A DNA stretch of 64,000 nucleotides from Ulva prolifera. Taxonomy: Eukaryota; Chlorophyta; Ulvophyceae; Ulvales; Ulvaceae. The notes below the pieces were generated by a model. The model was not told the DNA's origin and searched no databases. It worked only from the letters and a program-made list of their open reading frames with translations. Positions 39,837-62,322 of this stretch are shown here, piece by piece. The position numbers and the translations under genes were made by a program. Numbering within the stretch: position 1 is the stretch's first letter; each line of letters starts with the position of its first letter. The DNA is taken from assembly GCA_023078555.1 (NCBI GenBank), contig CM041198.1:1-64000 (forward strand), in the 5' to 3' direction.

Positions 39837-41228
39837 CTAGAAGGTCTTCTGATCTTGAATTAGATGCAGCTTCTCTCGAACGTCCTTCAATGCAGGTCCA
39901 GGCAAAACCTTAGTGAAGACATCAGCTAACTGGTCTTTGGTCCCTACCCATTGCACTTGGATCTCATCCGCCTCTGCAAATTCTCGGACCCGTAGGTGCC
40001 GCACTCGAATATGTTTGGACCTATCACTAGAGATTGGATTGTTTGCAAGGATATTCGCACTTTTATTATCTCCCCAAAGCACCGGTTTTTCTGGACGAAG
40101 ATGCAAGTCTAGCAACAATTGCTTGGCCCACATCAACTCGTTTGCTGCACTACTCATTGCTATCAATTCTGCCTCGGTCGTATCACCAGCTGTGATCGCC
40201 TGTCTCTTTGACCTCCAGAACACAGTATTGCCTTACACCCGTAGGAGTAGGCCACTTATGCTCTTCAAACTCTTGTCATTTGCAAAATCAGCATCAGTGT
40301 ATCCCTCAAGCAAACAGCTCTTCTCAGACGAGCCCTTAAACACCATACAAAGTCCCTTCGTGGACTGCAGGTATCTCAGAACATGCTGCACCGCTGACCA
40401 ATGCTCCTTTAAGCTACACCCCATATGCTTGGCCAAAGCATTACAGGCATAAGAAATATCAGGTCGCGTAACTACAGCCAGGTACTGGATTCCCCCTACA
40501 GCACTCATGAACTGAGCGTGCTCTGCCTGAGTGGCAACCTCAAGGTCAGGGTAGTCCTTCGCGCTCCTCAACTGTTGCCGTGGCACCAGTGGAGTCGGAC
40601 TGGGTCTGCAATCTGCCATGCTAAACTTTTCTAGCAGATTCACAATCTTCTGCTCTTGGGACAACGTGATCGTTCTCTTCTTCCTGTCACGCTTGATAGA
40701 GGCGCCTAATGCCCAAGACAAATCGCCTAAGTCCCTTCCGGTGAACACTTTGAGAATTCGGTCTATCAACTCCTTCAGGCCCGTGGACCGTCCGAAGATA
40801 AACAAATCATCAACCCATAGGAAGATGAAACATCTACCAGTTTTCCTAACATACAGTGCAGGATCTGAGTGTGAGCGAACAAAGCCCATCTCACCCAGTA
40901 GACGTGCAAGCGCCTCGTGCCATTCACGTGCTGCTTGCTTCAAGCCATACATGGTCTTAAGCAGTTTCCACACTCGACTGGTGCCATCGTTCAAAACCTG
41001 GGGTTGTTCTACATAAACAGTCTCATTCATGACCCCATTGAGAAAGGCACACTGGATGTCTACGTGTTTCATCTCTAAATCTTCCACTGCAGCTATTGAC
41101 AGAACAACACGAAGAGTGGCATAGCTCCCTACTGGTGCCCACGTCTAAAAGAAATCTACACCCTCCTCCTGGGTGAACCCTCTAGCAACATACCGCGCCT
41201 TGTAACGCTGGATCATTATCCCACCAGG
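39837..41228 (-). pseudogene. Copia element related to family I, 5'-truncated
   Basis: Minus strand. Begins abruptly in reverse transcriptase (IQRYKARYVARGFTQEEG) where kinase pseudogene C breaks off, and runs to the RNase H end (VLPGPALKDVREKLHLI). Two in-frame stops: one where family I has Glu in FFETW (about 41145), one after SGLLLRV (about 40230). The RT active box is WVDD, as in family I. Residue identity to family I is roughly 65 percent. Confidence 0.9.
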
Positions 41229-42112
41229 TATTGACGCCTCTTGCAGCGTGTCTTGCGTGCCTCCTTGGTGGCTTCTGGATCGGCAGTACCTCACAAAGGC
41301 GCCAAGCGTAGCGAAAGCCACAAGGAATGATGTAACAACGGCCGAAGCAACACCACCACCTGCTGCCCAGTCTGTGTCACCCTGCTTCGATTCTGCAGCA
41401 CTTGCTTCAACCGGGAGCGCGCCCGGTTAGACGCACTAGATTGGCTCCAGGTCAACGATGTTGCCATAGCCCATGTCTTCGATGGCTTGCTGGGTGTAGA
41501 GCAGGTTGCACTGCCGCTTCGAGCAACACCACATGTTGTAGATGTCCGGGTTGTACCCCGGACACGTCTTTAGCACCAATATGCTGCACAGAACTGCTTT
41601 ACTTGTTAGGGCTCACTTTTTAGGTGTCACAAGTTACACATACCGGGCCACTGTATGGCAAAGCAAACAAACAAATCAAGCCATCACTTTTTAGGTGGTG
41701 CCACTCCTTCTTGCAGGAGGGCCTATAGGTGTCAATGCATAGTGAGAATGCATGGGTAATGATTCGCGGACACAGTTGTATGCATATTCATGGCAGTGTG
41801 TTCAACTCCTTAAGGATTTCAGGAATTCCCACTGCCTGTGAAATCACGCCAGTCGGCCACAGAGTCGCAATGGCTGATTCTTGCAGCTGGGTCACGCTGG
41901 AGAAGCAGATGCAAAGAACTGAAGGGAGCGCAGGACGGCTTCAGCAAAGCCAGGTGAAGCTGTAGGTATGGGTCATGCACGATCGCGTTCAAGCTTGAGC
42001 GTATTCCTACTACACAAGTCATGTACAGCTGTTCCACATGCGCACCACATCGAGCTTGCAGGCTACAGGAGGCCAGGGTGGTGCACAGCACAAATCATGC
42101 ACGAGTTCCCAA

Positions 42113-42151
<39 letters not shown>
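42113..42151 (+). repeat. Poly-G tract in kinase C intron
   Basis: 39 consecutive G, placed about 60-100 nt behind the ectodomain donor, at the equivalent place of shorter runs in copies A and B. Confidence 0.97.
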
Positions 42152-42153
<2 letters not shown>

Positions 42154-42212
42154 AGGGGGGTCATGTACTCTATTGGCGCAGCGGTCGACGCTCGTCCGCC
42201 GAGAGGGCACAC

Positions 42213-42520
42213 CTGTTGGTGATGCAGAATCGTGCAGACCTGCCGAGATCAAAGAAGTCCATGAAGCCACTGTCGTAGATGCCCTCGTACGTCACGTTGG
42301 GCATCAGCAGCGTCATGTTCGAAAAATTGATGGTCGCGCCGGGAGGCACTTCCCGGCTGGCCACTCTGAAGATAGTTCCCGTGTGGAACGGCGCAAACAC
42401 GGTGGGGATACGCCGCGGCTGCGTCGTGGTGAGTGTGTCCAGCACCGACTTGCCCGAGAGCGTCACCCCCGGGAACTCGATTATAGGGGACACCCAAGCC
42501 TGGCTGGGTGGGACTAGAGC
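42213..42520 (-). pseudogene. Kinase C, ectodomain exon
   Basis: Acceptor GTCGTGCAG|GCTC and donor AACAG|GTGTGC. Open throughout: EFPGVTLSGKSVLDTL, QPRRIPTVFAPFHTGTIF, GATINFSNMTLLMPNVTYEG, GFMDFFDLGRSARFCITNR. No palindrome, unlike copy B. Confidence 0.75.
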
Positions 42521-43339
42521 CTGCACGACATGCTTCAATAGGTTGCCATGCACAAGTGGCCTGGAGACGCCATGACCATTTGCCGTTGCAGCTCTGCTAT
42601 CTCGAGATAGAACCGCGAACTAGTATGTTCTCAGGAGGAAATATGGAACCTAACACCAAGCAGCCATCAGCACGTACAGAATTTCTGATGATGATGATTT
42701 TTTTGACACCTAGCCACTAAGGAAAATACTAACCACACGATGCACGCGAATTTATGTATGGTCCAGTGCAGCTGCTGCTTCATGCATGATATCATGAGGA
42801 TACACAGCTAGCTAGCCCATGATCGGCCGGATGCACTTCAAGCAGGTACAAGGAAACCCATCGCAGTAGAGTGAACCGAGCCAGATAACCACAGCAGATG
42901 AGGCACAAGTAAACCATTAACATAGTGTGTGTACACATATAACATAGTGTGGGTGCTTCCGAGTGGACGATTGCACGGCAGTCGCAATGCAAGACTCTCT
43001 TGCGACGCAGCTTCCACATCAGTACAGATGACATCTAAAAGGTGCACGTGTGAAAATCCCAGTGCAGTCGTACATATGAAGGTTTCAGGCCGTATATTTT
43101 CTGTGAAGCGCGCATATCCTCGAGGTGGAGCTGGCCAGACCCATACGTAGGCAAGTACTACTTCAATGCCTAGTAGGCATTGAAAACATTGTGCTGGTAG
43201 TGGGTAGTGATGCTGATGCGCACAGCCTAGATTGTAATAGTTGCTAAGATCTGTGGCAACACACACTACTACTTGTGGACGTACCAGTGCCCTCGAGAAC
43301 ACCTCTGCGAGGTCCTGGACCTCGGCCGGTCCCAAGAAG

Positions 43340-43688
43340 TGTCACAATGCATGCGCCTGCGGGCAGCAGCGTGGTGACAGGTGCACCCATGCACGGATGA
43401 TCCGCGGATCATGTGTAGGGGTAAGCCGCCAGCGGGATTGTCCCGGAGTAGTGAGGGAGATCCTGCGAGGATCTCCCGCCGTAATCTTGACTATTCAGTG
43501 TGCATATATGGCTGTGCACACAGAGAGCTGTAACCTTTTTCTCACTGTTTCACGGTACTAGTCGTATCTTGTCTCCTCCTCAGCATCTCTCTGGTTCTAC
43601 CTCTGTGCGCAGCAGGTATGATATGCTGGTCTCCTGACATGTCGTAAAGACTGCGTATCTGACCTGACGAAGGATAGCCTTTCTGACA
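43340..43688 (+). repeat. Copia I 5' LTR
   Basis: 349 bp, TGTCACAATG...TTTCTGACA. Followed at once by TGGTATCGGTGATAG, similar to the usual primer-binding site for initiator tRNA-Met (TGGTATCAGAGC). Confidence 0.93.
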
Positions 43689-43703
43689 TGGTATCGGTGA
43701 TAG
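43689..43703 (+). promoter_or_regulatory. Primer-binding site of copia I
   Basis: TGGTATCGGTGATAG directly after the 5' LTR; the first seven bases match the common initiator tRNA-Met primer site. Confidence 0.65.
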
Positions 43704-43995
43704 TTTGCGCTATGTCTTTTGCGGTCTTGTTCAGGAAGCCGTCGGCCAAAGTCTGTGCGCAGACACGGCGGGCATTCCACTGTTCTGCCGGCGCTCAGAC
43801 CGCGGTCATAAGCGCAGGCATCATTAGGCGATCTCGTAGCACATTGTTATTAGATACAATTCGAGACGTTTGCTTTAATGATCAGCGCTGGGAAAAGCGA
43901 ATGCGTTCGTTTTATTTTCTCAACCTGTCGGCTTGCGAGCCATCCCATGGTTTAGTTTGCTGCGTGCAACAAACCACCGTCCGTCCTACTGCAGG

Positions 43996-44691
43996 ATGTC
44001 TAACTCTGATCGTTCCAACGCCAACTCTCTTCGCGAGGAGAGGCAGGACGAGGCTGATCAGCAGCCATTCGTCGACAGGGACGCTGAGCAACAGCTCCCT
44101 GACGAAGAACAGCCCGCGGGCATGTTACTTCGTGGCGGACGAGTTATCCGACCACGTCCCTCTTCCCAGACTGGGCAGAGCAGCCAGCAGGTGCCCTTTT
44201 CCTCTCATGTTGTGAACGATCATGGTCACACTGAGTCATTCATTACACTCGAGACGTTGACCGAAGCGCTGGGTGCATCTCGGGGACGTAACGAGCCTGA
44301 TTTGTCTAAAGGAAAATTGCCTGAATGGAATTTTAAGACCGAAAGCTTCGTTGCGTACGAGCAGAAAGTCTTTCTGTGGTTAGGACAGTTCGAGTTAGAT
44401 CATCTGTTGCAGCACGCACCGTCCGCGGACGAACAGCGTGTCCACGCTAGAGCAAGGACTCAAGTCCTTATGTCTTTGCCTGACGCGGATAGGACCACTG
44501 TCTATCGCATGTCACATCTGTGTGAGGCATGGGCCTATCTTACTGCAAAGTATAGGCCTAGCACTGAAGCCGAGATCCACAGACTGTGGAGTCGCTTCAA
44601 CTCTTTGTCACAGCGAAATAGAGACGTTGGGTCTTACTGTGGTGAAGTGATGAGTGTGTACACTCAATTGGAGGCACTAGGTCGTCTGTAC
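43996..44691 (+). pseudogene. Copia I gag, N-terminal part
   Basis: ATG 43996. An acidic, Gln-rich start is followed by the gag core: LPEWNFKTESFVAYEQKVFL, VLMSLPDADRTTVY, AWAYLTAKYRPSTEAEIHRL and VGSYCGEVMSVYTQLEALGR. Interrupted at 44691 by the 12.1-kb insert. The rest of gag resumes at about 56799 in a frame that does not restore exactly if only a 5-bp duplicate is removed, so the junction is uncertain by a few bases. Confidence 0.85.
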
Positions 44692-44695
44692 CTAC

Positions 44696-44935
44696 CCCCG
44701 CCCTTATTTTGCCCTTGGAAAGTGACATGTCGCCCTTACTGTTGCCCTTAGATTTCGCCCTTATTTGGGGTGGCACTTTTTGAAGCCCAATTAAGGGCGG
44801 CATGACTCTACACAAGGGCGGCACTAAGGGAGGCCCTTCTTTGCCATTGTATTAAGGGCGACTTGCCTTTATAGCTCTGTGCTAACGGATGGCTTTGTAA
44901 TGGCGGATCCGCTCTACCCGCAAGGGCGGGGAGCA
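44696..44935. repeat. AAGGGCG word cluster, left end of insert
   Basis: GCCCTT occurs at about 44700, 44712, 44733, 44745 and 44759 in one orientation, then AAGGGC at about 44793, 44814, 44862 and 44921 in the other, ending with ccgcaagggcggggagcatccgcc. Confidence 0.8.
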
Positions 44936-44960
44936 TCCGCCGAAAAAAAAAATGTGTGAT

Positions 44961-45027
44961 CACACCGCCGGCCGATGCCATGTGACTGCACGACAGGTAC
45001 GTCAACGGCATTGACCGGCGGTGTGTC
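44961..45027. repeat. Imperfect inverted repeat
   Basis: CACACCGCCGG at the left and CCGGCGGTGTG at the right are exact complements, with GATGCC/GGCAT also pairing inside; spacer about 30 nt. Possibly a boundary of an inner element. Confidence 0.6.
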
Positions 45028-47096
45028 GAATATGCGATATTGTGCAGCCACATAATGATGACACGGGGTGATGCTCAACTGTGACCATTGGTGTCCACCG
45101 GACACCAACGCACAGTTCACTGCTGCGAGCCAGTGCACCTAACGCACAGCCTCGTTCCCCGCGGCACGCTGCAGCATCCAGGGGCAACTGGCCTGTTCTG
45201 TCCGGCACAAAGCAAAAGATACAGAAACAGCTTGATCAGTGCGCTGCTCATGGGACGACGGCTGCTCATGGACTCGGTTCGGTTTCGATGCAGACGAGTA
45301 TCCTGCTCCGCTTGTGGTGCCTGAAAGGTTAGCCTGCATTTAGGCAACAAAGTCAGTGTGCATCTGTCAGATGTTTAACGCCTCGGAAAGGGTCTGCACG
45401 TGTGAAATTAGCGTACGTTGCAGGCGCTGCTAGGAATCAGTACACGGTATAGCACCCATAGACTGCTATTAGGAAGAAATCGTCGACCAATGATTTCACC
45501 ACGGAAGAACGTCGCATGGTCAGGCAAACCGTGTGTGATCGGCGAACATGTCGACATAAGGTCAGTGCAACAGGATCGAACGACAGCGGAAACGCATAAA
45601 GACGACGGCCCGTACCAGACGAGCCGAATAGTACGTTTCGTGCTTTGGTCAGTTTTCGTGAAGTTTCTAGTGTCGATGGAATCGGTGACCTGTGAAGCAT
45701 TGGCATTTCAATACTCGCAAACACCTTGACACTTCACCACAGCTAGTCTACACGAAACACTGTATACAATATTAAACTTAAGTATCCGGTACTGAGAGCG
45801 TGCGTGGTGAGTGTGCGTGTCCATTTTTGATGGAGACATGCAGCCGACGAGCTACATTGTTGCATGCTGACAACGACAGAGGCATGCCGGGAGATACAAG
45901 ATCAGCAGAAACATAGCATGTGCCATTCATAACGTGGTCACTCCGTCGGCTACGGGGCTATGATTGACGGCGATGATGTTTGACTTCCGACGAAACCATC
46001 AGCGTGAAACTTCATCCCACGATTGGCAGCTACTAAAAACATGGATCACAACCGATGCGCAGTTTGATATGAGTTGCTAGTAATCACAACTCAGGATGCT
46101 GAGAGACCGTGTGGAACTCGGGCAGTTCTTTAACATCGAAAGGTCATGTGCGCTTTTGCGCCGTAACATTGCACGGATCTGTGTCAATCTGTTACACGTA
46201 GGAATCATACCTTTCTCTGTTGTTTTCTGGCTGAAGATTGGCTGCCTAGGCAGCAGCCAAGCGGTCGTGTTGCTGCTGCTAACAAACGCGTAAGTTCGCA
46301 CGGACAACGAGCCCTACACCTACAGTGCGCCACATTGTACTTGCTTATCAACGAAGTGTAAACAAGTGACATGAGTACCGAAGCCGTATAGACATGGTCG
46401 CTGCGCATGAAACTTCGGGAACCGGCCCTGCAGAACGTATACCGCAGGCATAAGAATACTTGCCATCACTGCGCACATGCGATGACCACGATGTCAGTGT
46501 TGGTACATGTCAGCGCTGATAAGAGTTTCTTCTGCGCAGTACAAAGTTGTCTGCACGCTGCAGCGATGAGTAGCTGGGACAGAGCGGAGTATGCATGCGT
46601 ATGTGGCCACCAGGGCAGCCAACGTAACAACAGTGAGACACATGACAGACGGGCCTCGCAGCAGGCATTGAACCACATAGGTATCGTCCGGCAGCCCCAT
46701 CAGAGCGACACTGTTCATAAATGCTGAACAATCCGGTGTCATGATGTTGCAATGCAGATTCACAGGAACACATTGAGGCCTAGGATGTGGCCACAAAGTC
46801 TTCGTCACAACTATGCACTGCACATTAGCTTGACATCCATATTGGCCCTACCAAAGGCATGACATAGAGCAGTGAGCCGGTCTTGCATGCGATCAGGATT
46901 GGAGTCAACCAGTGCGTTGTGCATTAAAGATTGAGCTTTTTAGGCTTGAGGAGGTTTAATCAGTCCCATCATGACCAAGCACTGATGCAGATGGGCAGGG
47001 GTGCCCGCATACAGTGTTGCGGGCACAGATCTGAGGAGACTCCTCGAGGAGACTCCGTACACGCCAGACGCAACAACAATGCGCTGAGCGATTCTC
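45028..47096. other. No gene recognised
   Basis: Inside the 12.1-kb insert. ORFs up to 109 codons on either strand lack recognisable motifs. No repeats noticed except an 11-bp word (gaggagactcc, 47036-47055) repeated in tandem just before the satellite. Confidence 0.45.
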
Positions 47097-48130
47097 ACAG
47101 TGCTGGGCGATTCTGTGTTGGCATACCCTCTGGCTTCACACGAAGTGCAGAGGGCGTAGCACCGAACGTGCACACGTCGGGGGCAGCAGTGCTGTGGTGA
47201 CAGTGTCTTTGCTGGCATGCCCTCTGTCTTACCTCGCAGTGCAGAGGGCGTGGCACCGAACGTGCACACGTCGGGGGCAGCAGTGCTGTGGTGACAGTGT
47301 CTTTGCTGGCATGCCCTCTGTCTTACCTCGCAGTGCAGAGGGCGTGGCACCGAACGTGCACACGTCGGAGGCAGCAGTGCTGTGGTGACAGTGTCTTTGC
47401 TGGCATGCCCTCTGTCTTACCTCGCAGTGCAGAGGGCGTGGCACCGAACGTGCACACGTCGGGGGCAGCAGTGCTGTGGTGACAGTGTCTTTGCTGGCAT
47501 GCCCTCTGTCTTACCTCGCAGTGCAGAGGGCGTGGCACCGAACGTGCACACGTCGGGGGCAGCAGTGCTGTGGTGACAGTGTCTTTGCTGGCATGCCCTC
47601 TGTCTTACCTCGCAGTGCAGAGGGCGTGGCACCGAACGTGCACACGTCGGAGGCAGCAGTGCTGTGGTGACAGTGTCTTTGCTGGCATGCCCTCTGTCTT
47701 ACCTCGCAGTGCAGAGGGCGTGGCACCGAACGTGCACACGTCGGGGGCAGCAGTGCTGTGGTGACAGTGTCTTTGCTGGCATGCCCTCTGTCTTACCTCG
47801 CAGTGCAGAGGGCGTGGCACCGAACGTGCACACGTCGGGGGCAGCAGTGCTGTGGTGACAGTGTCTTTGCTGGCATGCCCTCTGTCTTACCTCGCAGTGC
47901 AGAGGGCGTGGCACCGAACGTGCACACGTCGGGGGCAGCAGTGCTGTGGTGACAGTGTCTTTGCTGGCATGCCCTCTGTCTTACCTCACAGTGCAGAGGG
48001 CGTGACACCGAACGTGCACACGTCGGGGGCAGCAGTGCTGTGGTGACAGTGTCTTTGCTGGCATGCCCTCTGTCTTACCTCGCAGTGCAGAGGGCGTGGC
48101 ACCGAACGTGCACACGTCGGGGGCAGCAGC
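47097..48130 (+). repeat. 94-bp satellite, 11 units
   Basis: The word gtgacagtgtctttgctggc recurs every 94 bp (47198, 47292 and so on). The first unit is diverged, the rest nearly identical. Each unit contains GCCCTCTG...CAGAGGGC, an 8-bp stem with a 15-nt loop, and CGTGCACACG. Variant units with gtcggagg stand three units apart (about 47368 and 47650). The 64- and 71-aa ORFs are by-products. Confidence 0.95.
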
Positions 48131-48137
48131 GCTGCAA

Positions 48138-48520
48138 CGAGGCTGGTTACTAGGTGGAAGCATCTGTGCTGGCCAGAATACCAGTGGCTGCATGTGATCA
48201 CATCACTGCCATCCACAGGAGGGCTATCTCAGCACACCGTCAGGCACGAGCACTGGCATCACCAGCCCAGCTGTATTCGTGGCCAGTTAGCGTGACAACC
48301 CCTTTGCAAAGACACTGGTGAATAGTTTGATGTATCTCTGCTGGCCAGAATAGCAGTGGCTGCATGTGATCACATCACTGACATCCACAGGAGGGCTATC
48401 TCAGCACACCGACAGGCATGAGCACTGGCACCACCAGCCCAGCTGTACTCGTGGCCAGTTAGCGTGACAACCCCTTTGCAAAGACACTGGTGAATAGTGT
48501 GATGTATCTCTGCTGGCCAT
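48138..48520 (+). repeat. 172-bp satellite II, left part
   Basis: A little more than two units; the word tgcatgtgatcacatcac at 48189 and 48361 is 172 bp apart. The array is broken at 48520 by a copia element and resumes at 53072. Confidence 0.93.
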
Positions 48521-48779
48521 TGTCGTGAGAAGTTGTTGTGTAGTCCAGTGCACTGTGTGCATGGCATGCATGTGCATGCATAGGTCTGATTAGGTCTGTG
48601 CAGAGGGTCATGGCAGTTGGGTATTTGATTGCATATAGGTAGACTGTAGCAGGTGAACACTATCGTGTTCACTGAGCTCCCGCTGTCATGACAGGTGTGA
48701 TATCCATTACCATCGTGATATCCTGACTGGTCACTCCCCACACTGTAATCGTGTTCACTGAGCTCCCGCTGTCATGACA
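48521..48779 (+). repeat. Copia III 5' LTR
   Basis: TGTCGTGAGAAG...TCATGACA, 259 bp, followed by GGTTATGGGCTT (primer-binding-like). Contains an internal direct repeat of about 34 bp (48662-48695 and 48748-48781). Confidence 0.88.
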
Positions 48780-48814
48780 GGTTATGGGCTTCTGACGACT
48801 CCACTGCGCCAGCA

Positions 48815-50359
48815 ATGAGCAACGTCAACCAATTCAAGCTCGGCATCGAGCTCACGGCTGCGAATGCCGTGAGCTGGTTCAAGCGGATGACGCTGCTGTT
48901 GCAGTTGTATGATGGCTGCTGGAAGGCAGTCACAGAAGACAGTGGGACGGACATGGTCAAAGCTAAGGCTCGACTCGCAATCTCAATGAATGTGGGTGAC
49001 GATCTACTCCACGTAGTAGATCCTGCCAAGTCTCCCAAGGAGATCTGGACTGCCTTGAATGCTCAGTTCGTAGGCGTGAGTGCGGCACGCAAGATGTCAC
49101 TTCAGAAATTGCAGACTTCCTTCAGAAAGGAGTCAACTGAATCCCTTGAGGAATTCATTGCACGCGCTAACGACCTCCGTGGTCAGTTGGCCACAGCAGC
49201 CATGCTTGAGGAAGAGGCATTTGTGCTTTTGTTCCTGGCTGCACTGAGTGAATCACAACTAGCGGCTTGGTCTCAGAGCCTGCTAGCTCACAAGCCGCTG
49301 ATGTCATATGCTGACATAATCGAGAACATGCGAGGCACGTTCGGTGCCGACATGCTCGCCAAGCGTGAAGCTGCTGCCGGACAGCAAGCTTACGCTGTCG
49401 CCGACACCAACGGCGCATGTGCGTACTGTCACAGAAATGGTCATAACATCCTGCAATGTTACAAGCTGCGCAACGATCAGCAGTCGCATGACAATGGCAA
49501 CCCCCCGCGCAGCAGTCGCGGCAATGCACGCGGCGGTGGCAGGCGCGGTGGCGGTGGCGGGCGCGGCGGAGGCCGTGGCCGCGGCGGACGCCCACAGGCG
49601 AATTACAGCAGCGCATTCTTCTGCGTCTCAGCGAACCAGGTGTCCGCTTCCAGCTCCAAATGGCTGTTCGATTCAGCTTGCACTGACCACATGGTCAATG
49701 ATGCGAGCCTGCTCCACAATGCGCAGCCATATGCATCGTCATGCACTGTCGCAAACAACCAGTCCGCAGCTATCACAGCAAAAGGCGAAGTGCGGCTTAC
49801 CAACCATCTGGGTGAGCTTGTCACTCTGCAAGACGTCCTTCTTGTGCCAAATTTGCAGCACAATTTGATATCTCTCGGCCGTGCTGACGCCGCGGGGATG
49901 ACATACAATGGCAAACATGGCGCACTCATGTTGCGCCACAAAGGTCACCAGCTGTTACGTGGCCAGCTGTCACAAAAGCTGTACGAAGTCGAATGCACTC
50001 CACAGCAGTGCACACAGGCTGCCGCGCCGCATGCGCCAGCAGCCGCGCAGACTGTTTCCAAAGCAGACGCCCGATTGTGGCATCGCCGGTTCGGACACAC
50101 CGGCATCACAACCCTTGCCAAAATGTCCAGAGGCCAGACCGTCGATGGCCTCCCGCCAGCAACAGACTTTGAGGCGCTTTCTCAATCCACAGCCGTGTGC
50201 AGCCCATGTGCACAGGGCAAAATGAAGCGCGAGAGCTTCCCAGCATCTCATGCACGCGAGCAAGTCAAGTTTGCAAAACTCCATGCAGACATCGCAGGCC
50301 CGTTCGACACCAGCGCGGGCGGGATGAACTACTTCTTGATAGTTGTCGATGACTGTTCA
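48815..50359 (+). pseudogene. Copia III gag-protease-integrase N-part
   Basis: ATG 48815. Gag with VNQFKLGIELTAANAVSWFK; zinc knuckle CAYCHRNGHNILQC; an Arg/Gly-rich stretch (RGGGRRGGGGGRGGG); protease WLFDSACTDHMVND, with DSA as in many copia elements; GAG-pre-integrase LWHRRFGHTGITTL and the HHCC zinc site CSPCAQGK; start of the integrase core LHADIAGPFDTSAGG and VVDDCS. The frame continues into inverted LTR sequence to a chance stop at 50503. Confidence 0.9.
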
Positions 50360-50503
50360 CCTGCTACAGTCTACCTATATGCAATCAAATACCCAACTGC
50401 CATGACCCTCTGCACAGACCTAATCAGACCTATGCATGCACATGCATGCCATGCACACAGTGCACTGGACTACACAACAACTTCTCACGACACGCCCCCT
50501 TAG
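50354..50503 (-). repeat. Copia III 3' LTR start and purine tract, inverted
   Basis: 139 bp (50492 down to 50354) equal the first 139 bp of the 5' LTR. Just upstream on the minus strand lies the purine tract CTAAGGGGGCG after the RNase H stop. Confidence 0.9.
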
Positions 50504-50504
50504 T

Positions 50505-52037
50505 CTAGGGCACAACACCGAGAGACTGACGGTGCTTTTCAAACAGCTGCTGTGGCAGTGGCTTGGTCAAAACATCGGCAGGATTGTCAGCAGTGGGAAC
50601 TGGGATGAACTTCATCTGCTGACGTGCTACCTTCTCCCTCACATGATGATAAATAATCTCGATATGCTTCGTCCGTGCAGCTGAGAGAGGATCTTCAATC
50701 AAATACTTCGCTGCACGATTGTCTAAACCTACAGAGACACATGATGGTGGCAAGCCCATCTGAGGAGCTAACCCACAAAAATACTGAACTTCTTTGGCTA
50801 TTTCCCCTGCTGCAACATACTCAGCTTCTGATGATGATCTGCTAACTGTTGGCTGTCTGGCTGACTTCCATGAAATGGAGCCCAAGCCACATTTGACAAT
50901 GAACCCTGTAGTCGATCTACGAGTTAAGGGACAACCGGACCAATCAGAGTCACAATACCCATATAATACACATTGAGGACCACCCAGACGCAAGCTGTAG
51001 GATGCGGTTCCCTTGAGATACAACAAAACATCCCTGATCCTAGCAAAACTGCTGCAAGTCGGCTGCTGTGTTGATCTGGCTAGATATGACACAGCGAAGG
51101 AGATGTCGGGCCTGGTATTGTTGGCAATGTGTAGTAGAGCACCGACGATTGACTTGTACTGTGAAATTGCAGCTGCATCAGTAACATCTGAACCTGCAGG
51201 ATCTTTGTAGACATTCACAATCATTGGAATTACAATTGGCCAGGCTTCTTGCAGTTGATGCTGCTCAATCAACTTCTCAATATGTCGTTGCTGCTTCAAG
51301 TAGATTGTTTTTGCTGGTCTGTTTCTGGTGATGGTCATCTGGAGAAAATACTGCGATTCGCCGGTGTCCTTTCCTGGGAATTTTGAGAGTAGTGCTTTCT
51401 TGATGAATTGAACGCTGTAGAGCTTCAATGCTGCAATCTGAATGTCATCAACATAGCAGAGCAGGAGGACAAAGCCTAACTCATCTATCCACAGCATAAA
51501 CACTGCTGCATCACTCTTGCATTGCACAAATCCGAGTGATATGATGAAGGCTGTCAGCGTCTCGTTCCAGACGCGGGGAGCTTGCTTGAGACCATACAAG
51601 CTTTTGCTCAGAATGCACACACGACCTGAATTGTCATCATAGCCAGCTGGCTGTCGCATGTAGATCTCCTCGGCAACCGTGCCTTGGATAAAAGCATTCT
51701 TGATGTCAATTGAATGACATTCCATGTCAAAGGAGGCCACTATTGACAGGAATAAGCGCACAGTGCTTGCACGCACCACTGGAGCAAAGACTGCATTGTA
51801 GTCGATACCCTCTTTCTGATAAAACCCTTTGATCACTAGTCTGGCTTTATATCTCTCAATGCTTCCATCTGCATTGAGCTTGCGCTTGAAGACCCATTTG
51901 CTTGGAATGGCCTTCTTCCCCTGTGGAAGCGCGGTCAGGTGCCACGCTCCCATCGCAATCAGAGCATCATACTCTGTATCAATTGCTGCTTGCCAGAATG
52001 GTGCTTCTGGACCTGTGAGTGCTTCCGCTATCGTCAA
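50505..52037 (-). pseudogene. Copia III reverse transcriptase and RNase H, inverted
   Basis: 510 codons, open. RT: MGAWHLTALPQGKKAIPSKW, FAPVVRASTVRLFLSIVA, DIKNAFIQGTVAEEIYMRQP, SLYGLKQAPRVWNETL and LLCYVDDIQIA (standard YVDD). RNase H: YGYCDSDWSGCPLTRRSTTG, SSSEAEYVAAGEIAKE, LDNRAAKYL, TKHIEI and NPADVLTKPLP. One frameshift at about 52060 separates it from integrase. Confidence 0.93.
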
Positions 52038-53003
52038 GGGCTCAGGGGGAAGCCCGACAACGGAAAATTTACGTATGAGCTTCTAGGTAGCCCATACATA
52101 AACTTGCCGTAAACATCTTTCGGCGACTCACGTATGCGCTCGCTGCGGCGCAATTCTGGCTGCTCTGCAGGCGGGGCTGCAGGCGGAGCTGCAGGCTGGG
52201 CTGCAGGCTGGGCAGACTCATCGAACAATGGATTGTTCGCCATGAGTGGATTGAGTTGCTGAGGTGGCAATGCTGGTGCTGCGGGTGCTGGTGCTGCTGG
52301 TTGAGCTGGAGCTGGTGGAGCTGGTGCTGCTTGTGCTGCTGGTGCAGCTGGTGCAGCTGGTGCAGCTGGTGCAGCTGGTGTTGCTGGTGCAGCTGGTGCA
52401 GCTGGTGCAGCTGGGGCAGCAGGATCTGCGAGGAGATCAGAGCATGCATCAATGTGCATGTCGCTGGCTGGTGATGCCGATTCATCAAACATCACATCAC
52501 GTGTAGTGATCACTTTGCCATTTGGGAGCAGCACGCGGAAAGCTTTGAAGTTGGGCTGAGCATACCCAATAAACTTGCCGACATTTGCCTTTGGAGGCAG
52601 GGAGCGCTTGTTGCGCGCTTGCTGTGGCAATTTGTACCAGCAGGTGCAGCCGAAGAGCCGGAGATTGCTGATGTCCGGCTTCGTGCCCTTCACAAGCTGC
52701 CAAGAGCTGGGGCCGCCATCGCTGCTTGAGATGTTTGAGATATACACTCCATGCATGAGTGCATCACCCCAGTAGCATTTCCTCAGACCTGAATCTGCAA
52801 GCAATGCATCACGAATCGGACTCACAGAGCCGATTCCCCGCTCTGCATGGCCATTCTCCGCAGGACTGTAGCCGGAAGTGAGCTGTCGCTCAATCCCTTT
52901 GCCTTTGAAGAATGCATGCATATCATGTGACAGGAACACAGAGTCCCGGTCAAACCTAATCGCTTTGACACGTGCATCATACATCTTCTCGACTCCTAGG
53001 ATG
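52038..53003 (-). pseudogene. Copia III integrase C-part and linker, inverted
   Basis: Integrase continues with VKAIRFDRDSVFLSHDMHAF, GIERQLTSGYSPAENGHAER (the catalytic Glu region) and the chromodomain-like linker FIGYAQPNFKAFRVLLPNGK. A repeated Pro-Ala-Ala linker is coded by a (gctggtgca)n-like repeat at 52290-52420. About 20 residues between the plus-strand part and this one seem lost at the breakpoint. Confidence 0.9.
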
Positions 53004-53071
53004 ATCGTGATATCCTGACTGGTCACTCCCCACACTGTAATCGTGTTCACTGAGCTCCCGCTGTCATGACA

Positions 53072-55897
53072 GCCATAATACCAGTGGCTGCATGTGATCA
53101 CATCACTGCCATCCACAGGAGGGCTATCTCAGCACACCGTCAGGCACGAGCACTGGCATCACCAGCCCAGCTGTATTCGTGGCCAGTTAGCGTGACAACC
53201 CCTTTGCAAAGACACTGGTGAATAGTTTGATGTATCTCTGCTGGCCATAATACCAATGGCTGCATGTGATCACATCACTGACATCCACAGGAGGGCTATC
53301 TCAGCACACCGTCAGGCACGAGCACTGGCATCACCAGCCCAGCTGTATTCGTGGCCAGTTAGCGTGACAACCCCTTTGCAAAGACACTGGTGAATAGTTT
53401 GATGTATCTCTGCTGGCCAGAATACCAGTGGCTGCATGTGATCACATCACTGCCATCCACAGGAGGGCTATCTCAGCACACCGTCAGGCACGAGCACTGG
53501 CATCACCAGCCCAGCTGTATTCGTGGCCAGTTAGCGTGACAACCCCTTTGCAAAGACACTGGTGAATAGTTTGATGTATCTCTGCTGGCCAGAATACCAG
53601 TGGCTGCATGTGATCACATCACTGACATCCACAGGAGGGCTATCTCAGCACACCGACAGGCATGAGCACTGGCACCACCAGCCCAGCTGTACTCGTGGCC
53701 AGTTAGCGTGACAACCCCTTTGCAAAGACACTGGTGAATAGTTTGATGTATCTCTGCTGGCCAGAATAGCAGTGGCTGCATGTGATCACATCACTGACAT
53801 CTACAGGAGGGCTATCTCAGCACACCGTCAGGCACGAGCACTGGCATCACCAGCCCAGCTGTAATCGTGGCGAAAACGTTTGACAACTCCTTTGCAAAGA
53901 CACTGGTGAATAGTTTGATGTATATCTGCTGGCCAGAGTGCCAGTGGCTGCATGTGATCACATCACTGCCATCCACAGGAGGGCTATCTCAGCACACCGT
54001 CAGGCACGAGCACTGGCATCACCAGCCCAGCTGTATTCGTGGCCAGTTAGCGTGACAACCCCTTTGCAAAGACACTGGTGAATAGTTTGATGTATCTCTG
54101 CTGGCCAGAATACCAGTGGCTGCATGTGATCACATCACTGACATCTACAGGAGGGCTATCTCAGCACACCGTCAGGCACGAGCACTGGCATCACCAGCCC
54201 AGCTGTATTCGTGGCCAGTTAGCGTGACAACCCCTTTGCAAAGACACTGGTGAATAGTTTGATGTATCTCTGCTGGCCATAATACCAGTGGCTGCATGTG
54301 ATCACATTACTGCCATCCACAGGAGGGCTATCTCAGCACACCGTCAGGCACCAGCACTGGCATCACCAGCCCAGCTGTATTCGTGGCCAGTTAGCGTGAC
54401 AACCCTTTGCAAAGACACTGGTGAATAGTTTGATGTATCTCTGCTGGCCATAATACCAATGGCTGCATGTGATCACATCACTGACATCCACAGGAGGGCT
54501 ATCTCAGCACACCGTCAGGCACGAGCACTGGCATCACCAGCCCAGCTGTATTCGTGGCCAGTTAGCGTGACAACCCCTTTGCAAAGACACTGGTGAATAG
54601 TTTGATGTATCTCTGCTGGCCAGAATACCAGTGGCTGCATGTGATCACATCACTGCCATCCACAGGAGGGCTATCTCAGCACACCGTCAGGCACGAGCAC
54701 TGGCATCACCAGCCCAGCTGTATTCGTGGCCAGTTAGCGTGACAACCCCTTTGCAAAGACACTGGTGAATAGTTTGATGTATCTCTGCTGGCCAGAATAC
54801 CAGTGGCTGCATGTGATCACATCACTGACATCCACAGGAGGGCTATCTCAGCACACCGACAGGCATGAGCACTGGCACCACCAGCCCAGCTGTACTCGTG
54901 GCCAGTTAGCGTGACAACCCCTTTGCAAAGACACTGGTGAATAGTTTGATGTATCTCTGCTGGCCAGAATAGCAGTGGCTGCATGTGATCACATCACTGA
55001 CATCTACAGGAGGGCTATCTCAGCACACCGTCAGGCACCAGCACTGGCATCACCAGCCCAGCTGTATTCGTGGCCAGTTAGCGTGACAACCCCTTTGCAA
55101 AGAGGCTGGTAAATAGTGTGAAGCATCTCTGCTGGCCAGAATACCAGCGGCTGCATGTGATCACATCACTGACATCCACAGGAGGGCTATCTCAGCACAC
55201 CGTCAGGCCCGAGCACTGGCATCACCAGCCCAGCTGTATGCGTGGCCAAAACTTGTGACAACCCCTTTGCAAAGACACTGGTGAATAGTTTGATGTATCT
55301 CTGCTGGCCATAATACCAGTGGCTGCATTTGATCACATTACTGCCATCCACAGGAGGGCTATCTCAGCACACCGTCAGGCACCTGCACTGGCATCACCAG
55401 CCCAGCTGTATTCGTGGCCAGTTAGCGTGACAACCCCTTTGCAAAGACACTGGTGAATAGTTTGATGTATATCTGCTGGCCAGAGTGCCAGTGGCTGCAT
55501 GTGATCACATCACTGCCATCCACAGGAGGGCTATCTCAGCACACCGACAGGCATGAGCACTGGCATCACCAGCCCAGCTGTATTCGTGGCCAGTTAGCGT
55601 GACAACCCCTTTGCAAAGACACTGGTGAATAGTTTGATGTATCTCTGCTGGCCAGAATAGCAGTGGCTGCATGTGATCACATCACTGACATCCACAGGAG
55701 GGCTATCTCAGCACACCGTCAGGCATGAGCACTGGCATCACCAGCCCAGCTGAACTCGTGGCCAGTTAGCGTGACAACCCCTTTGTAAAGAGGCTGGTAA
55801 ATAGTGTGAAGCATCTCTGCTGGCCATAATACCAGCGGCTGCATGTGATCACATCACTGACATCCACAGGAGGGCTATCTCAGCACACCGACAGGCA
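53072..55897 (+). repeat. 172-bp satellite II, right part, with higher-order repeat
   Basis: About 16 units at 172-bp spacing (tgcatgtgatcacat at 53089, 53261, 53433 and so on). Unit variants (gccatc/gacatc; gtcaggcacgag/gacaggcatgag; gtattcg/gtactcg) follow a larger period: 53221-53810 and 54423-55012 are identical for about 590 bp although neighbouring units differ, giving a seven-unit repeat of about 1203 bp. Confidence 0.93.
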
Positions 55898-56349
55898 CTT
55901 GCATCATCTGCACAGCCGTCCTCGTGTCCAGCCGGTGTTTCCATAACCACATGGCCAGGGAGACTGACCTCCAAAGCGGCCGCAGTGGCACTTTCGTTTA
56001 GTACGAAGAGCACAGGCATCACTTGCCGCAAGCAGTGTCGTAAGAAGTCTGCAACTGTCCGTAGCCGTAGACGCTCGCGCCTGTGGTTCATACAGTTTCC
56101 AAAGTCTCCATTGCAGATTGGTGAAGCATGATGTGCCCGAGCTTCCAAATGGCTATGTAGCAGCGATGGTTTGCCCTGCTCGTCCCTGAACACTGTTGCA
56201 GCCGTATATTGCCGATTTTCACATACATATACTTTGCGCTGTAGAATCAGATCGTGGCGCGATCTGTGCGTGTGGGGCCTGTTCATAGACCAGATGCTCC
56301 AGTAGCCCGGTTCGCGATGGCGCATGCTGAGCTCCGCTAGAGACAACAC
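55898..56349 (-). CDS. Hypothetical ORF fragment in the insert
   Basis: A 166-codon minus-strand frame whose last codons run into the satellite, so the real C-terminus is lost. It has normal composition: GYWSIWSMNRPHTHRSRHDL, ENRQYTAATVFRDEQGKPSL, RTVADFLRHCLRQVMPVLFV. No family recognised; it could be a remnant of the insert's own protein. Confidence 0.35.
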
Positions 56350-56793
56350 GTCATAAAACTTTGAGCAAATTGGTAAACATGTTCATAGTAGGTTTAATTT
56401 TGTATCACTGACGGATTAGCCTCTAGCGGTGACACGCAGCCGTCCTAAGCTCTGCCCAAGTGTGTGCGTAGGCTGATTGACCTACAGAAAGGCCGCGAGT
56501 CTCCAGAGCCCAAGTTAAGCCTGAATGTAACCAAATATATTCCCGTGAAAGGATATACACGCTTTGATCGCGCTGTTCGTGAGCATCGTAACAGCGCTGG
56601 CCGACCGAGTCATCCTCGAAGACAGGCACAGTGCAACTGCGTCCGTAGACCACAACGAACCGGATAAAGCATATCATGCGTCATTATCATATTGAACATG
56701 CTCATTCCGGTTGAAATCACATCAAAAGGCGACTGTTTCTGCTCCGACCTATCCGCCCTTGTCAGGCCCGCCCTTGTAACATGAGCCAGGACG
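56350..56793. other. Right end of the 12.1-kb insert
   Basis: No gene recognised. Two CGCCCTT words (about 56755 and 56769) close to the edge mirror the cluster at the left end. Confidence 0.5.
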
Positions 56794-56798
56794 TGTAC

Positions 56799-59700
56799 AG
56801 ACGGTGCCGATGTGGGCCAGCGATGGCTCCGATTAAAACTTTTAGAAGTGGGGGAGGAGTTCAATGCCGTGCGCGGCGAAGTCCAACACTCCTCCCCCCA
56901 TGTCATCATTGCACGTTTGACTGAGCATGCTGATTTGCTCAAGCAGCAGCGGCTGCAGGCTAGGTCTGGACCGCCCGCGGGCAAACCAGGCCAAGGCTGG
57001 CGCAATCAGCAGCGAGGCGACGGTCCTGCGGTCGCTGCGCTTGACGCTGGCAAGGCTCCTCGCGAGGAGACCAGGACCTGCTTCTTCTGCAAGAAGAAGG
57101 GACACTTGCGTGCGAACTGCCCCCAGCGCAAACAGGCCGCGGCCAAAGATGTTTGTGCTGTAGAACTGCCTGAAGAGTTCCCGGATCATGATGCATTAGC
57201 ACCGTGGAATTTTATCATTGATAGCGGTTCTGACATTCACATTGTGGGCAATCGCGATATGTTCACTGAGTATGGTCCGTGCCAGAGAACTGCCAATCCC
57301 GCTGGACCAGGCAAGATCCCCATTATGGGCAGGGGAACCATTCAGGTGAACCTGGGCACCTATGTGGATGAGCATGGGAATACGCATCCTCTGGATGTGG
57401 AAATCCCGGGTGTGTACTATGCGCCTGAGTGTCCATACAACATACTGAGTACTATGGGTCTTCGTCACGAGAAGATTTACTTAGATACGCGTAGGAGTGT
57501 GTTGTATGTCCCCGGTTTCGGAGATATGGCTACAGGTATTGAGGATGCGTCCAAACACCAGGAGCTGGATGAGGATAAGTGTCGTGTCTTTGCTTTCAAA
57601 ATGTGTTCCCTCAAGAAGCCTGTTCTTGAGGGTCATCCTGTTAACAGGGGAGTGGTATGGTCTGACCAGAGCAGTCCGACCTCTGTTGTGGAGGATCAAA
57701 AGCAGTGGTGTCATGTGGCCGCTGCGGCGATCGACCTAAAGCGCCCCAATGCTGGGGGAGCTGAGGTCCCACATGATGCTTACTTGCTGGAACCTGCATT
57801 CTTAGCTCATTTGTCGTTTCATCAGTCGACGTGGGTCTTAAAACGGATGCAGTCAAATAGTGATTTTTACGGTGACCTGAATTTGAAAGTTGACCCCGAG
57901 CCAATGGGGAATCGTTGTCACGGCTGCAGAATTGGCAAAGTGCCCGCGGGCAAAATCTCAGCCAATAATCGTGAGCTCTTAGGCCAGGCGAAATACCCTG
58001 GCGAGCAACTGCATGCTGATTTGGCTGGTCCCATCACTCCAGTTGGGATCGGCGGTGTGAAATATGTCTTGTTTGTGATGTGCGCCTTCACGCGTTACAC
58101 TTTCATTGTCGGTCTGCGTAAGAAGAGTGAGGCTGCGGCCATGATCTCTTACATCATTGAGCGCATTCGGGTGAATGTGGTGAAGCCAGGTGAACCGGGT
58201 GTGCGCATCCTTCACACCGACAAAGGGGGAGAGTTCATGGTCGAGGCCTTAAAGCTCTACCTCCAGCGTCGTGGCATTACTCACCGCACCACCCCCACAG
58301 CTGATCATCGCTGTAATGGCATGATCGAGCGGAGGATCGGTATTGCCTTCGAGGCAGTCCAGGCTGTACTGCTTGCGAGCGGTCTTCCTCTGTTCTTGTG
58401 GATTGAATGCCTTGCCAGTGTCATCCATGGTCACAATCTCACGCCGTGCTCGGCGCTGTACCATGACAAACTGGCAATAATGATGAAAGCTCAGAAAGCT
58501 CAGCGTGATGCCAATACAGCTGCGGATGTACAGCAGGCTGAGCGGGCTAATAAGCGCATGAAAAAGGCCGAACGTGATAAGTTGCGAGAGGAGGAGAAGC
58601 GCAAGTGGGAGTTGCTCACTATGACAGAACTGGACGAGTTTTTGACCAGGTCTTGTGACAGGGATATCATTCCCTATATGTCTTTTTTCAGAGACACCTC
58701 CGTTGAGGTGTTCCTGGATTTGGTGAAGCAGCAGCGTCCATGGGGGGTTGAGGTGTATGCGTATCCTAGGGATGATCACTTGCGGAAATTGTCCGCAAGG
58801 GGTATGGTCGCATACTGGGTTGGTGCTGGGCTGGGGCCCAGCATGCAGCGTGTGTACGCCCAGGACGTTCCTGGGGGTAGGGTTGTGGTGGTGCGGCAGA
58901 TCATGTGCACCACGGATCAGATGATCCGACACGTACGTAAGTACGATGCGTCCGCTGTTGTGGACAAGAGAGAACCTGCAGAGTTTGCGAACTCCCTACA
59001 GGTTGTCTTTGAGGGTGATGACGAGGGTGTCCGCGTGACTGACAGTGATGTCCCCTCGTTCGTCACTGACTCCACACATGATGGGGGAGTGCTGCGACGT
59101 CTGCGTGAATTCTCGCACGCCCCCCCAGGTCATGGTAGAGTCCCTGTCATGGACATGACGTTCAGACAGGACGCACTGCCTGATGAGGCAGTGTACTCTC
59201 CACGTTTCGGCGCAGGTTCCTCCGCTGAGGTGCTCCGGCGTGACCCTGCGCGGGAAACACCGGAGGTGGCCAGGCACACCATGCATCGCACGCGTGCGAT
59301 TGCTCGTGCAGCTGCCCACCCTGACGTTGAAGTTCCTCCTCGGGTCCCAGGCCAGGCGCGCCTATCTGGGGCCCCTCCAGCACGCACTGTCGAGTATGTG
59401 GTGACTCGCAATGCCCGGCTCCATGACCCTGGCATCAAAGCTGCATCTGTCCTGCCCATGCCTAGGCCTTCACTGTCGTCTGATGATTCCATGGACGACG
59501 ATGATGCCGACGACGGTCCTGGCATCTATGATGAGGACGATGCGGATGAGATGGAGGAGTACACCATCAGCGATGATGAACGGGCTGCGGCTCATCAGAA
59601 TCGCGAGGCTCAGCGGGTTCGATCAGGGAGTAATTCGGCTGCGGCCTCAGCATCTGGCGCGGGAGCAGTAGCTAAGCCCCTGCGAGGGGCTGAGGGGCTG

Positions 59701-61671
59701 AGACCTTCCTGGGAGGATGAGCCAGATGAAATTGAGATGGAGTCCGGATCCGAATTAGGGGGAGAGATCCAGGCTGCCCCCTCTGCCGCTGTCGGGGTTG
59801 ATTTGCCTGATGAGGTAAGAGCCATTCCAGCTGCTCTTCCCCGCATTAAAATCAATCCTCTTGTACGTAGACGCCTTGTTCCTTTGGCTGTGGATGTAGC
59901 TGCTGTGCATGAGCCCGCGGGCTCTGATCATGCTAGTAGTGAAACAGTAGTAGCTGACATCAAGTCTCCAGGCTGCAATCAGGACACATCAGCCGCGGCT
60001 GACTGTGGAGTGTCCGGTGCAGGCCTGAAGCATCAGCATGGGGAGTCTGGTGAGCAGCACAGTGCTCAGCGTCGTGGGTCGCGCAGAGCAGCTGCCGCCA
60101 GGAAGCAGAAGCCTTCCGACCCTGATCTGCCTTCTATGAAGGAAGGACTTGCGGGTCCAGACAGGGATGCTTGGCTGCGTGCCATGCAGGAGGAGGTGGA
60201 AGCACTGGGTGAGCACGGGACTTTTATGTTGTGCTATCTGCCTGCGGGTAAGAAAGCTATCTCGGGCAAGTGGGTGTTCAAGATCAAGCGCGGACCCGCT
60301 GGTGAGATTCAGCATTACAAGGCACGTTATGTAGCTCGTGGTTTTTCTCAGGTAGAAGGGATAGATTTCTTCGAGACTTGGTCCCCTGTCGGTAGTTACG
60401 CGACACTGCGTGTGTTGCTGTCCATTGCTGCTCAGGAGGATTTGGAGATTAGGCATATAGACATACAGTGTGCTTTTCTTAACGGTGACCTGGAGGAAGA
60501 GGTTTTCGTTGAACAGCCCCCGTACTTCACAGACGGGACAGCACGTGTATGGAAATTACATAAAACACTGTATGGCCTGAAGCAAGCCGCTTGCGAGTGG
60601 CATAAAGCTTTAGTAAAGGTCTTGGCTGAACTGGGATTTGTGTGCGCACAAAGTGATCCTGGACTGTATGTCAGAACAACTGGTCGATGTCTCATTTTTC
60701 TGTGGGTAGATGACTTATTCATTTTCAGTTGCTCCGCGGGGCTGCAGGAAATCATCAGTGTCATTCTCACGAAATTTGAAGGCAGAGATCTAGGTGACCT
60801 GTCTTGGGCACTTGGCACTGAGATCACGCGTGATCGAAAGGCCAAAACAATCACAATGACACAACGTAACAAAATCCAGAACTTGCTGGACAAGTACAGC
60901 ATGTCTGACTGTCGTAAATCTCCCACTCCATTAGTGCCGCGGCAACAGCTAAGGAGTGTGAAAGAGCATCCTGACCTGGAAAAAGCCAGTGCTGCTGAGC
61001 ATTCCAGGTTCATGAGTGCTGTAGGAAGCATCCAGTATATTGCAGGAGTGACACGACCTGACCTGAGCTATGTGGCACATGCCCTGGCCCGGCACATGTC
61101 TAGTAGTCTGAAGGAACATTGGTCTGCCGTGCAACATGTTCTGAGATACCTGCAGTCCACGAAAAATCTAGGAATAAAATTTGTAGGCTCTAAGGGACAT
61201 GGGTGTTTACTAGAGGCTTTTTCAGATGCGGATTTTGCGAATTCTGCGGATCTCAAGAGTGTATCTGGTATGATTGTTCGGGTGTATGGGAACTGTGTTC
61301 TCTGGCGTTCGAAAAAGCAGAGTATAGTGGCTGGGGATACAACAGAGGCTGAGCTCATTGCGATGAGCGCAACAGCCAACGAGCTCATGTGGATGAAGCA
61401 ATTGCTTCTCGATGTGAAGCTTGTCCCACATAAGCCGACTCTGTGGGGTGATAATAAGAGTGCCAATATTTTGGCAGTGAATGCTGTGTCCACTGACAGA
61501 TCCAAGCACATTCGTGTGCGGCACTTGCGAGTGCGGGAATATGTCCAGATGGATGAACTTAAGATAGCATGGGTTAGCACTGTTGATCAGTTAGCGGATG
61601 TGTTTACTAAAGTGCTGCCCGGACCTGCCTTGCAAGAAGTTCGTAATAAACTCCAGCTAGTGGAGACTTAG
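56799..61671 (+). CDS. Copia I gag-pol, remainder
   Basis: Open for about 1620 codons. End of gag, then zinc knuckle CFFCKKKGHLRANC (residues 90-103 of the frame from 56812), protease NFIIDSGSDIHIVG, HHCC zinc site (HQ...CHGCRIGK), integrase core with HADLAGP, HTDKGGEF and MIERRIG (D, D, E), a long Lys/Glu-rich helical insertion not usual in copia, an acidic linker, RT (IDFFETWSPVGSYATLRVLL, DIQCAFLNGDLEEEVF, KTLYGLKQAACEWH) and RNase H (FSDADFANSADLKS, TEAELIAMSATANE, GDNKSANIL, SKHIRVRH). The active-site box is WVDD (60703-60714) instead of YVDD. Stop TAG at 61669. No start of its own; the apparent GTG is inside gag. Confidence 0.93.
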
Positions 61672-61688
61672 CAGGGTTTATGGGGGAG

Positions 61689-62036
61689 TGTCACAATGCA
61701 TGCGCCTGCGGGCAGCAGCGTGGTGACAGGTGCACCCATGCACGGATGATCCGCGGATCATGTGTAGGGGTAAGCCGCCAGCGGGATTGTCCCGGAGTAG
61801 TGAGGGAGATCCTGCGAGGATCTCCCGCCGTAATCTTGACTATTCAGTGTGCATATATGGCTGTGCACACAGAGAGCTGTAACCTTTTTCTCACTGTTTC
61901 ACGGTACTAGTCGTATCTTGTCTCCTCCTCAGCTCTCTCTGGTTCTACCTCTGTGCGCAGCAGGTATGAGATGCTGGTCTCCTGACATGTCGTAAAGACT
62001 GCGTATCTGACGTGACGAAGGATAGCCTTTCTGACA
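61689..62036 (+). repeat. Copia I 3' LTR
   Basis: 348 bp; preceded by the purine tract tatgggggag. Compared with the 5' LTR: one base lost in agcatctctc, T to G in tatgatatgc, C to G in tgacctgacg. Confidence 0.93.
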
Positions 62037-62322
62037 AGAAGTGCGTCCCATACAGCGCCACTTCCCTGTTAGTGCTCGAGACGTTGACTGTGCCCCCCAG
62101 CTGGAACTCCGGGACGTAAACCTCGACTTCTGCAATGAGATTTTCCGGAAGATAAGAAAAGTAAGCGACTCGGACGCCAGTTGCAACTTGATCCGACGCT
62201 GCTTCTTGCTGCAAACGTCGCAGGGACGTCCGGTGGACGGTTCCGAATTCGACGACTTGCACGTTGGTATACTGACAGCAACACCAAAAGGTTACAAGGA
62301 GACATATCCCGGCTTTCGCCAT
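62037..62322 (-). pseudogene. Kinase C exon 1, 5' part
   Basis: ATG 62322: MAKAGICLLVTFWCC signal peptide, then VRVAYFSYLPENL, VPEFQLGGTVNVS and ALYGTHFL, broken by the copia and continued as GPAEVQDLAEVFSRAL at 43339-43285. Paralogue of 13200-13532. Confidence 0.88.

Follow-up and report, generated by a model that had tools for sequence, protein, structure and literature searches.

Among described systems close to the locus considered here are the nested LTR retrotransposons of plants: in one account (PMC6911290), an LTR element lies within another element and the order of events is taken from the nesting, as here. According to a second account (PMC7251063), approximately a quarter of nested plant LTR elements are more diverged between their LTRs than are their hosts. 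Of another sort is Tetris of Drosophila virilis, an apparently non-autonomous DNA transposon with internal tandem repeats, in which respect the middle element of the present nest is alike; the repeats of Tetris are in its inverted repeats and have, as reported (PMC4079207), seeded longer satellite-like arrays. What sets the present locus apart from the nested plant elements of the first account is that the middle level is a DNA transposon and that the innermost element is partly inverted.

The locus is within what is termed the window, i.e. the whole 64,000-nucleotide stretch of Ulva prolifera DNA that was analyzed, this being the first 64 kb of contig 3 of a genome that was searched over 88.9 Mb in 44 contigs. 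With 38 chlorophyll-binding matches, the genome is that of a photosynthetic eukaryote; a search for phycoerythrin alpha was empty, which carries little weight, since the control genomes gave no hit either. Three transposition events and one inversion are, with high confidence, the best account of the nest at 43340-62036. The nest is real and well supported, though its kind is ordinary and the pattern common. Its boundaries and duplications, unoccupied sites for the three insertions, the dispersed family to which the DNA transposon belongs and the inversion of the innermost element, copia III, have direct support. The original prediction was of a four-level nest in which a gene is split by one copia element, that element by a 12-kb insert, and the satellite of the insert by a further copia element. 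The nested insertion and its overall direction stand, but the satellite is not a level of its own, and for this reason, and because copia III is partly inverted, the count becomes three insertions and one inversion. The features are as follows.

41220-43339, minus strand: 3′ part of the gene C remnant, from blastn within the window, ending at the copia I target duplication
62037-62322, minus strand: 5′ part of gene C exon 1, from the start codon at 62322 to the copia I site, compared with paralogue A
43335-43339 (left) and 62037-62041 (right), no strand: copia I target duplication AGAAG, from sequence comparison
43340-62036, plus strand: copia I LTR retrotransposon, from its LTR pair, split by the 12.1-kb insert
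44683-56803, plus strand: TIR DNA transposon, 12,121 bp including copia III, aligned to other copies
47112-48134, plus strand: 94-bp tandem array of the transposon, with 10.9 units as against 2.9 in the nearest copy
48162-55898, plus strand: 172-bp tandem array of the transposon, split by copia III into 2.1 and 16.4 units
48516-48520 and 53072-53076: copia III duplication GCCAT, from sequence comparison
48521-53071, plus strand: copia III LTR retrotransposon, 5′ LTR at 48521-48779
50354-53003, minus strand: inverted segment of copia III, with the rest of the integrase, RT/RNaseH and the first 139 bp of the 3′ LTR

By blastn within the window, the 3′ part of gene C has homology to pieces of paralogue A that lie between 10106 and 13256. 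Its exon 1 frame is open as far as the copia I site (...ALYGTHF), the comparison sequence in paralogue A being ...ALYGTHFLGPAAVQDL, and resumes beyond it as LGPAEV...; with the two sides translated apart, the frame beyond copia I is LGPAEVQDLAEV and the corresponding one of paralogue A is ...ALYGTHFLGPAAVQDLVEV. With AGAAG on both flanks, and with paralogue A at 13248-13256 spanning the unoccupied site with one base different (AGGAAG), the splitting of exon 1 by copia I with duplication of AGAAG is borne out. The designation of gene C as a kinase pseudogene is fair by homology only, since paralogue A has a kinase match (Pkinase at ~8470-8790, E 7e-8, 32.6 bits against a cut-off of 31.7) and gene C has none. 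By blastn within the window, the Pkinase part of paralogue A has no counterpart in gene C. A kinase domain inside gene C was rejected, as search of all six frames of 41200-43340 and 62032-64000 gave no kinase match; one unrelated match, CR_prot_dom_plant (E 0.0064), was below cut-off. Homology of gene C stops at 41220, before the kinase part, and there adjoins a truncated copia fragment. The latter (RT/RNase H, 40233-41214, minus strand) occupies the position, immediately next to gene C, at which one would look for the kinase part. In and beside paralogues A and B, at 11182-12763 and 25627-26663, are related sequences that include inverted pieces and are mostly unmatched in gene C.

Copia I has a TG...CA LTR pair, at 43340-43688 and 61689-62036, within its 5-bp target duplication. 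The product of its ORF at 56812-61671 has a copia-type reverse transcriptase (RVT_2 at 1137-1375, E 8e-58) with integrase upstream (rve at 396-497, E 3e-7, its 31.1 bits being just below the cut-off of 32.6), and Pol_BBD (E 1.5e-8); in the gag piece at 43933-44748, Retrotran_gag_2 is below cut-off (E 0.0018). Realignment of the LTRs gave the same count as before, two substitutions and one 1-bp indel, over 350 gap-free columns that include two bases (‘AG’) ahead of the LTR on both sides. A copia I-like 3′ fragment with an LTR, 89% identical to the 3′ end of copia I, is also present at 16684-17631.

The site of the 12.1-kb insert in the gag region of copia I is unoccupied, on both flanks and with the same 3-bp overlap in all, in at least 11 other copia I copies. 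This count comes from two edge searches of the genome, in which the left flank up to 44682 is matched by at least 16 other copia I copies and the right flank from 56803 by at least 14, the 11 being in both sets, and not from a separate check of the unoccupied site at eight loci in one orientation, which found it in three of the eight. The copy numbers for copia I and for the insert are lower bounds because only the best 40 candidates of each search (of 327 and of 346) were scored. The splitting of gag is therefore upheld, though not with the duplication first proposed (see below): the target duplication is GT, at 44681-44682 and 56804-56805. The terminal inverted repeat is CGTCTGTAC/GTACAGACG, other copies starting CGTCTGTACC and ending GTACAGACG, and without copia III and one copy of its duplication the transposon is 7,565 bp. 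Ends were paired by hand where both matched at nearby places of one contig, with unpaired ends (L011/L061, L022, L023, L032, L033, L043, L050, L051, L062, L064 and L065) being left out. An exact 2-bp duplication is present in 19 of the 20 left-right pairs, the window included (chance of at least 19, ~2.5e-22), and a 3-bp one in none; the exception, L014/L063, has a 4-bp match instead. Inverted-repeat ends together with these duplications identify the insert as a dispersed TIR DNA transposon. The sequence duplicated is TA in four of the 20 pairs, and in others TT, AC, AG, GT, AA, AT, GA, GC or TC. Subterminal GCCCTT/AAGGGC occurs ten times in the first 300 bp and twice in the last 150 bp, with two occurrences in the other 11,671 bp. 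At C1:732.3-738.1 kb, two transposon copies (L064 and L042) abut at their right ends, as though one had inserted near the end of the other.

The 172-bp array is an internal component of the insert and not a satellite hosting another level of the nest. With a two-unit query, in a search that may miss common sequence, the unit was found at 32 genomic places (clustered by hand), 28 of which are in transposon copies, meaning copies with an end matched in the edge searches, two of them being the distal halves of copies that a large insert has divided; a free-standing satellite level was rejected on this count. The four places with no matched element end are at C4:0.437, C6:2.482, C3:4.767 and C9:1.259 Mb. 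The nearest copy, L080 at C7:2.37 Mb, is 6,814 bp with duplication TA and has no copia III; the window copy, discounting copia III, is 751 bp longer, one base short of eight 94-bp units. The two are 99.9% identical outside the 172-bp array: on the left, in a stretch that enters the first 94-bp units, 3 of 2,701 columns differ, and on the right 1 of 905 bases. To the right of copia III, 100 of 2,827 array positions differ when compared position by position, and nearest-neighbour units are out of order between the two copies, from which reshuffling of the array is deduced. The internal arrays thus change faster (3.5% collinear difference, reshuffling, and 3 versus 11 of the 94-bp units) than the flanking element (~0.1%). 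A second array of period 172 bp, at 1305-2685, was unmatched by the search with the first, and the shared period may be coincidence. Arrays ~70% similar to the 94-bp unit are at C7:2.456, C2:5.870, C1:2.794, C11:0.0825 and C7:3.740 Mb; several of these have copies 110 bp apart and are perhaps in related elements.

Copia III was predicted to split the satellite with duplication of GCCAT. Position and duplication hold, the latter being present on both sides, but ~2.65 kb of the element is inverted, which had been missed. On the plus strand are the gag (Retrotran_gag_2, E 1.5e-9), Pol_BBD and gag-pre-integrase domains; on the minus strand are the SH3-like and RT (RVT_2, E 2e-60) domains. The 3′ LTR is divided, its first 139 bp being on the minus strand and its last 68 bp back on the plus strand. 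LTR parts are identical at 139 of 139 and 69 of 69 bases, the 208 bp including one base just outside the LTR. With the copies at C2:186-191 kb and at C3:2.88 Mb as reference, the joints lack integrase (~63 bp) and LTR (~52 bp) sequence, with 4 bp of microhomology at one and ~1 bp at the other. Among the 40 matches listed, the window alone spans the inversion joint, and at least five other copies hold both halves on opposite strands, i.e. in the normal arrangement. Among the copies compared, this is the only one with the inversion, which took place when copia III inserted or afterwards. Autointegration as its cause was rejected because the joints have deletions and short microhomology and the internal one has no LTR terminus. 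The copia III flanks align to L080 with a 5-bp overlap, giving an unoccupied site that is less firm than the other two, as alignment within an array is register-dependent and the units are reshuffled. Copia III shares with copia I the features of Ty1/copia elements, RVT_2, Pol_BBD, integrase before reverse transcriptase, TG...CA LTRs and 5-bp duplications; its gag match is above cut-off. Neither element differs in kind from known Ty1/copia elements, although copia III has its internal inversion. The copia III primer-binding site at 48780-48797, GGTTATGGGC, presumably resembles the internal tRNA-iMet site used by Drosophila copia.

The mechanism that we infer is transposition. Copia I would have entered exon 1 of an already duplicated kinase-like gene in an integrase-mediated step with a 5-bp duplication. 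A non-autonomous TIR DNA transposon, bringing its own internal 94-bp and 172-bp arrays, would then have entered copia I in its gag region, duplicating 2 bp, presumably in a cut-and-paste reaction with transposase from the longer sister elements dealt with below, which would have acted as helpers. Copia III would have entered the 172-bp array with a 5-bp duplication, whether before or after the transposon reached copia I. Finally, or while copia III was inserting, 2.65 kb of it would have flipped and the joints would have lost ~63 and ~52 bp, in the manner of end joining or template switching. The DNA transposon can have entered only after copia I was in place here, unless both moved together, of which no sign was seen, and copia III must be younger than the transposon copy holding it.

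That every event can be ordered, the inner ones all being younger, was a further part of the original prediction, and dating by LTR divergence was run for both copia elements. The direction is likely rather than proven, since the transposon may carry a passenger and since divergences of 2/350 for copia I and 0/208 for copia III (p = 0.53) do not separate the insertions in order. Acquisition of copia III by the DNA transposon elsewhere, with carriage into copia I, so that copia III would be older than the 12-kb insertion, is possible though on balance doubtful, and would alter the order only, the parts of the nest being unchanged. Loaded transposon copies do exist, with large inserts in the 172-bp array at L085-L088 (C2:8.644-8.651 Mb and C1:9.288-9.311 Mb). 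The copy at C2:8.64 Mb has an LTR-type insert (direct repeats that align over 396 bp at 99.7% identity, with the 5-bp TGGCA duplicated) and that at C1:9.29-9.31 Mb a ~23-kb insert with CACTA-type ends (18-bp inverted repeat, ATA duplication), both being known from their ends alone with duplications read by eye. These copies, and LTR divergence that does not settle the order, favor such carriage, but no copia III match among those listed is within another transposon copy and the LTR parts of copia III are identical over the 208 bp compared. The order might also be upset, though this is highly improbable, if a copia I already holding the transposon had been retrotransposed as one long RNA, with the insert then being older than copia I at gene C. 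Joint movement of this type would reset LTR identity; it would, however, need an RNA of ~14 to 18 kb, and no other copia I-insert junction was found among the candidates scored (best 40 of 327 and best 40 of 346).

Assembly errors tend to arise in long tandem arrays and multicopy elements, yet creation of some of the joints by repeat misassembly is very unlikely given three sets of matching duplications (5, 2 and 5 bp), insertion joints consistent with other copies of the same elements, and inversion joints that have lost ~63 and ~52 bp and share only 4 and ~1 bp. The reading from which the analysis started, in which the 12.1-kb insert is bounded by a TGTAC duplication and the satellite is an independent level, can hardly be maintained. 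TGTAC does stand near both edges, at 44687-44691 and 56794-56798, but alignments with other copies of copia I and of the insert put the edges, 44683 and 56803, beyond it, so that TGTAC is within the terminal inverted repeat CGTCTGTAC and was rejected as a target duplication; the satellite as a level fails on the 28 of 32 array places that are within insert copies. Three insertions and one inversion remain the preferred account, and the nest is of use in that copia I copies provide the unoccupied sites that fix the ends and the duplication size of a transposon that is otherwise hard to delimit.

The unclassified DNA transposon is the less ordinary part of the nest and deserves a second look. 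A longer sister of ~9 kb (L079, C1:47500-56700) matches the window copy at both ends, over 123 bp on the left (97.6%) and 1,486 bp on the right (95.9%). L084 (C2:6758300-6764300) comes from inside a similar copy and has 99.5% identity with L079 across 5,427 columns. Both have a plus-strand gene, seemingly with introns, and a convergent minus-strand gene, and this long class is probably autonomous. Exons of both genes are conserved in comparison with a diverged relative at C3:4.83 Mb, with 35-50% amino-acid identity and pN lower than pS (0.37-0.48 versus 0.72-0.87), the relative having one stop in each of three of the four aligned pieces. Two further L084 frames, of 280 and 140 amino acids, have no counterpart in that relative. 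The minus-strand product has 33 genome matches, among which eleven form a set at 36-37% identity and three another at 33%; this gene has relatives in at least three further sequence groups, and those at 33-37% identity are amplified across the genome. When the plus-strand gene was sought in a second family, the ORFs of L089 had no relation to it visible by eye. Neither product has a Pfam match above cut-off or a PDB match better than E 0.33 (one search listed seven chains), and the strongest lead is DUF6381 on the last plus-strand exon (E 1.8e-4), its 21.6 bits being below the cut-off of 26.6. A search of viral contigs aimed at naming the transposase gave no match, and of ten matches in a pattern search of them none was confirmed. 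One of the two genes would be the transposase and, if this proves so, a new superfamily might be defined. That the 12-kb insert belongs, as a non-autonomous member, to an undescribed DNA-transposon superfamily, characterized by CGTCTGTAC termini, 2-bp duplications of variable sequence, two convergent genes with no Pfam or PDB match, several lineages in the alga and its own fast-changing 94-bp and 172-bp arrays, is a tentative proposal that we consider rather unlikely. No element recognizable as this transposon was met in the literature searched, and no claim is made that it is unpublished.

TA duplications, as of Tc1/mariner/pogo elements, are not the rule here, being present in four of the 20 pairs. 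EnSpm/CACTA DNA transposons have short inverted repeats, subterminal repeats and, in the long form, two genes; some of their non-plant members are said to have 2-bp duplications. A Transposase_21 (TNP2-type) match was sought in six frames of L079 and in five long ORFs of L084 with none found, the exons possibly being too short to score. CACTA or CACTG termini are absent, the ends being CGTCTGTAC (CGTCTG), and the 3-bp duplication of EnSpm/CACTA is present in none of the 20 pairs, with 2 bp in 19. The transposon differs from EnSpm/CACTA in its CGTCTG termini and in a duplication of 2 rather than 3 bp, with no known transposase domain seen in the frames searched; the same genome has an insert with CACTA-type ends (18-bp inverted repeat, ATA duplication). 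In layout the transposon is like EnSpm/CACTA, with short terminal inverted repeats, subterminal repeats (GCCCTT/AAGGGC) and two genes in the long form. With regard to Tetris (PMC4079207), the difference is one of location: the array here is internal, with 28 of the 32 places found for it in copies of the element.
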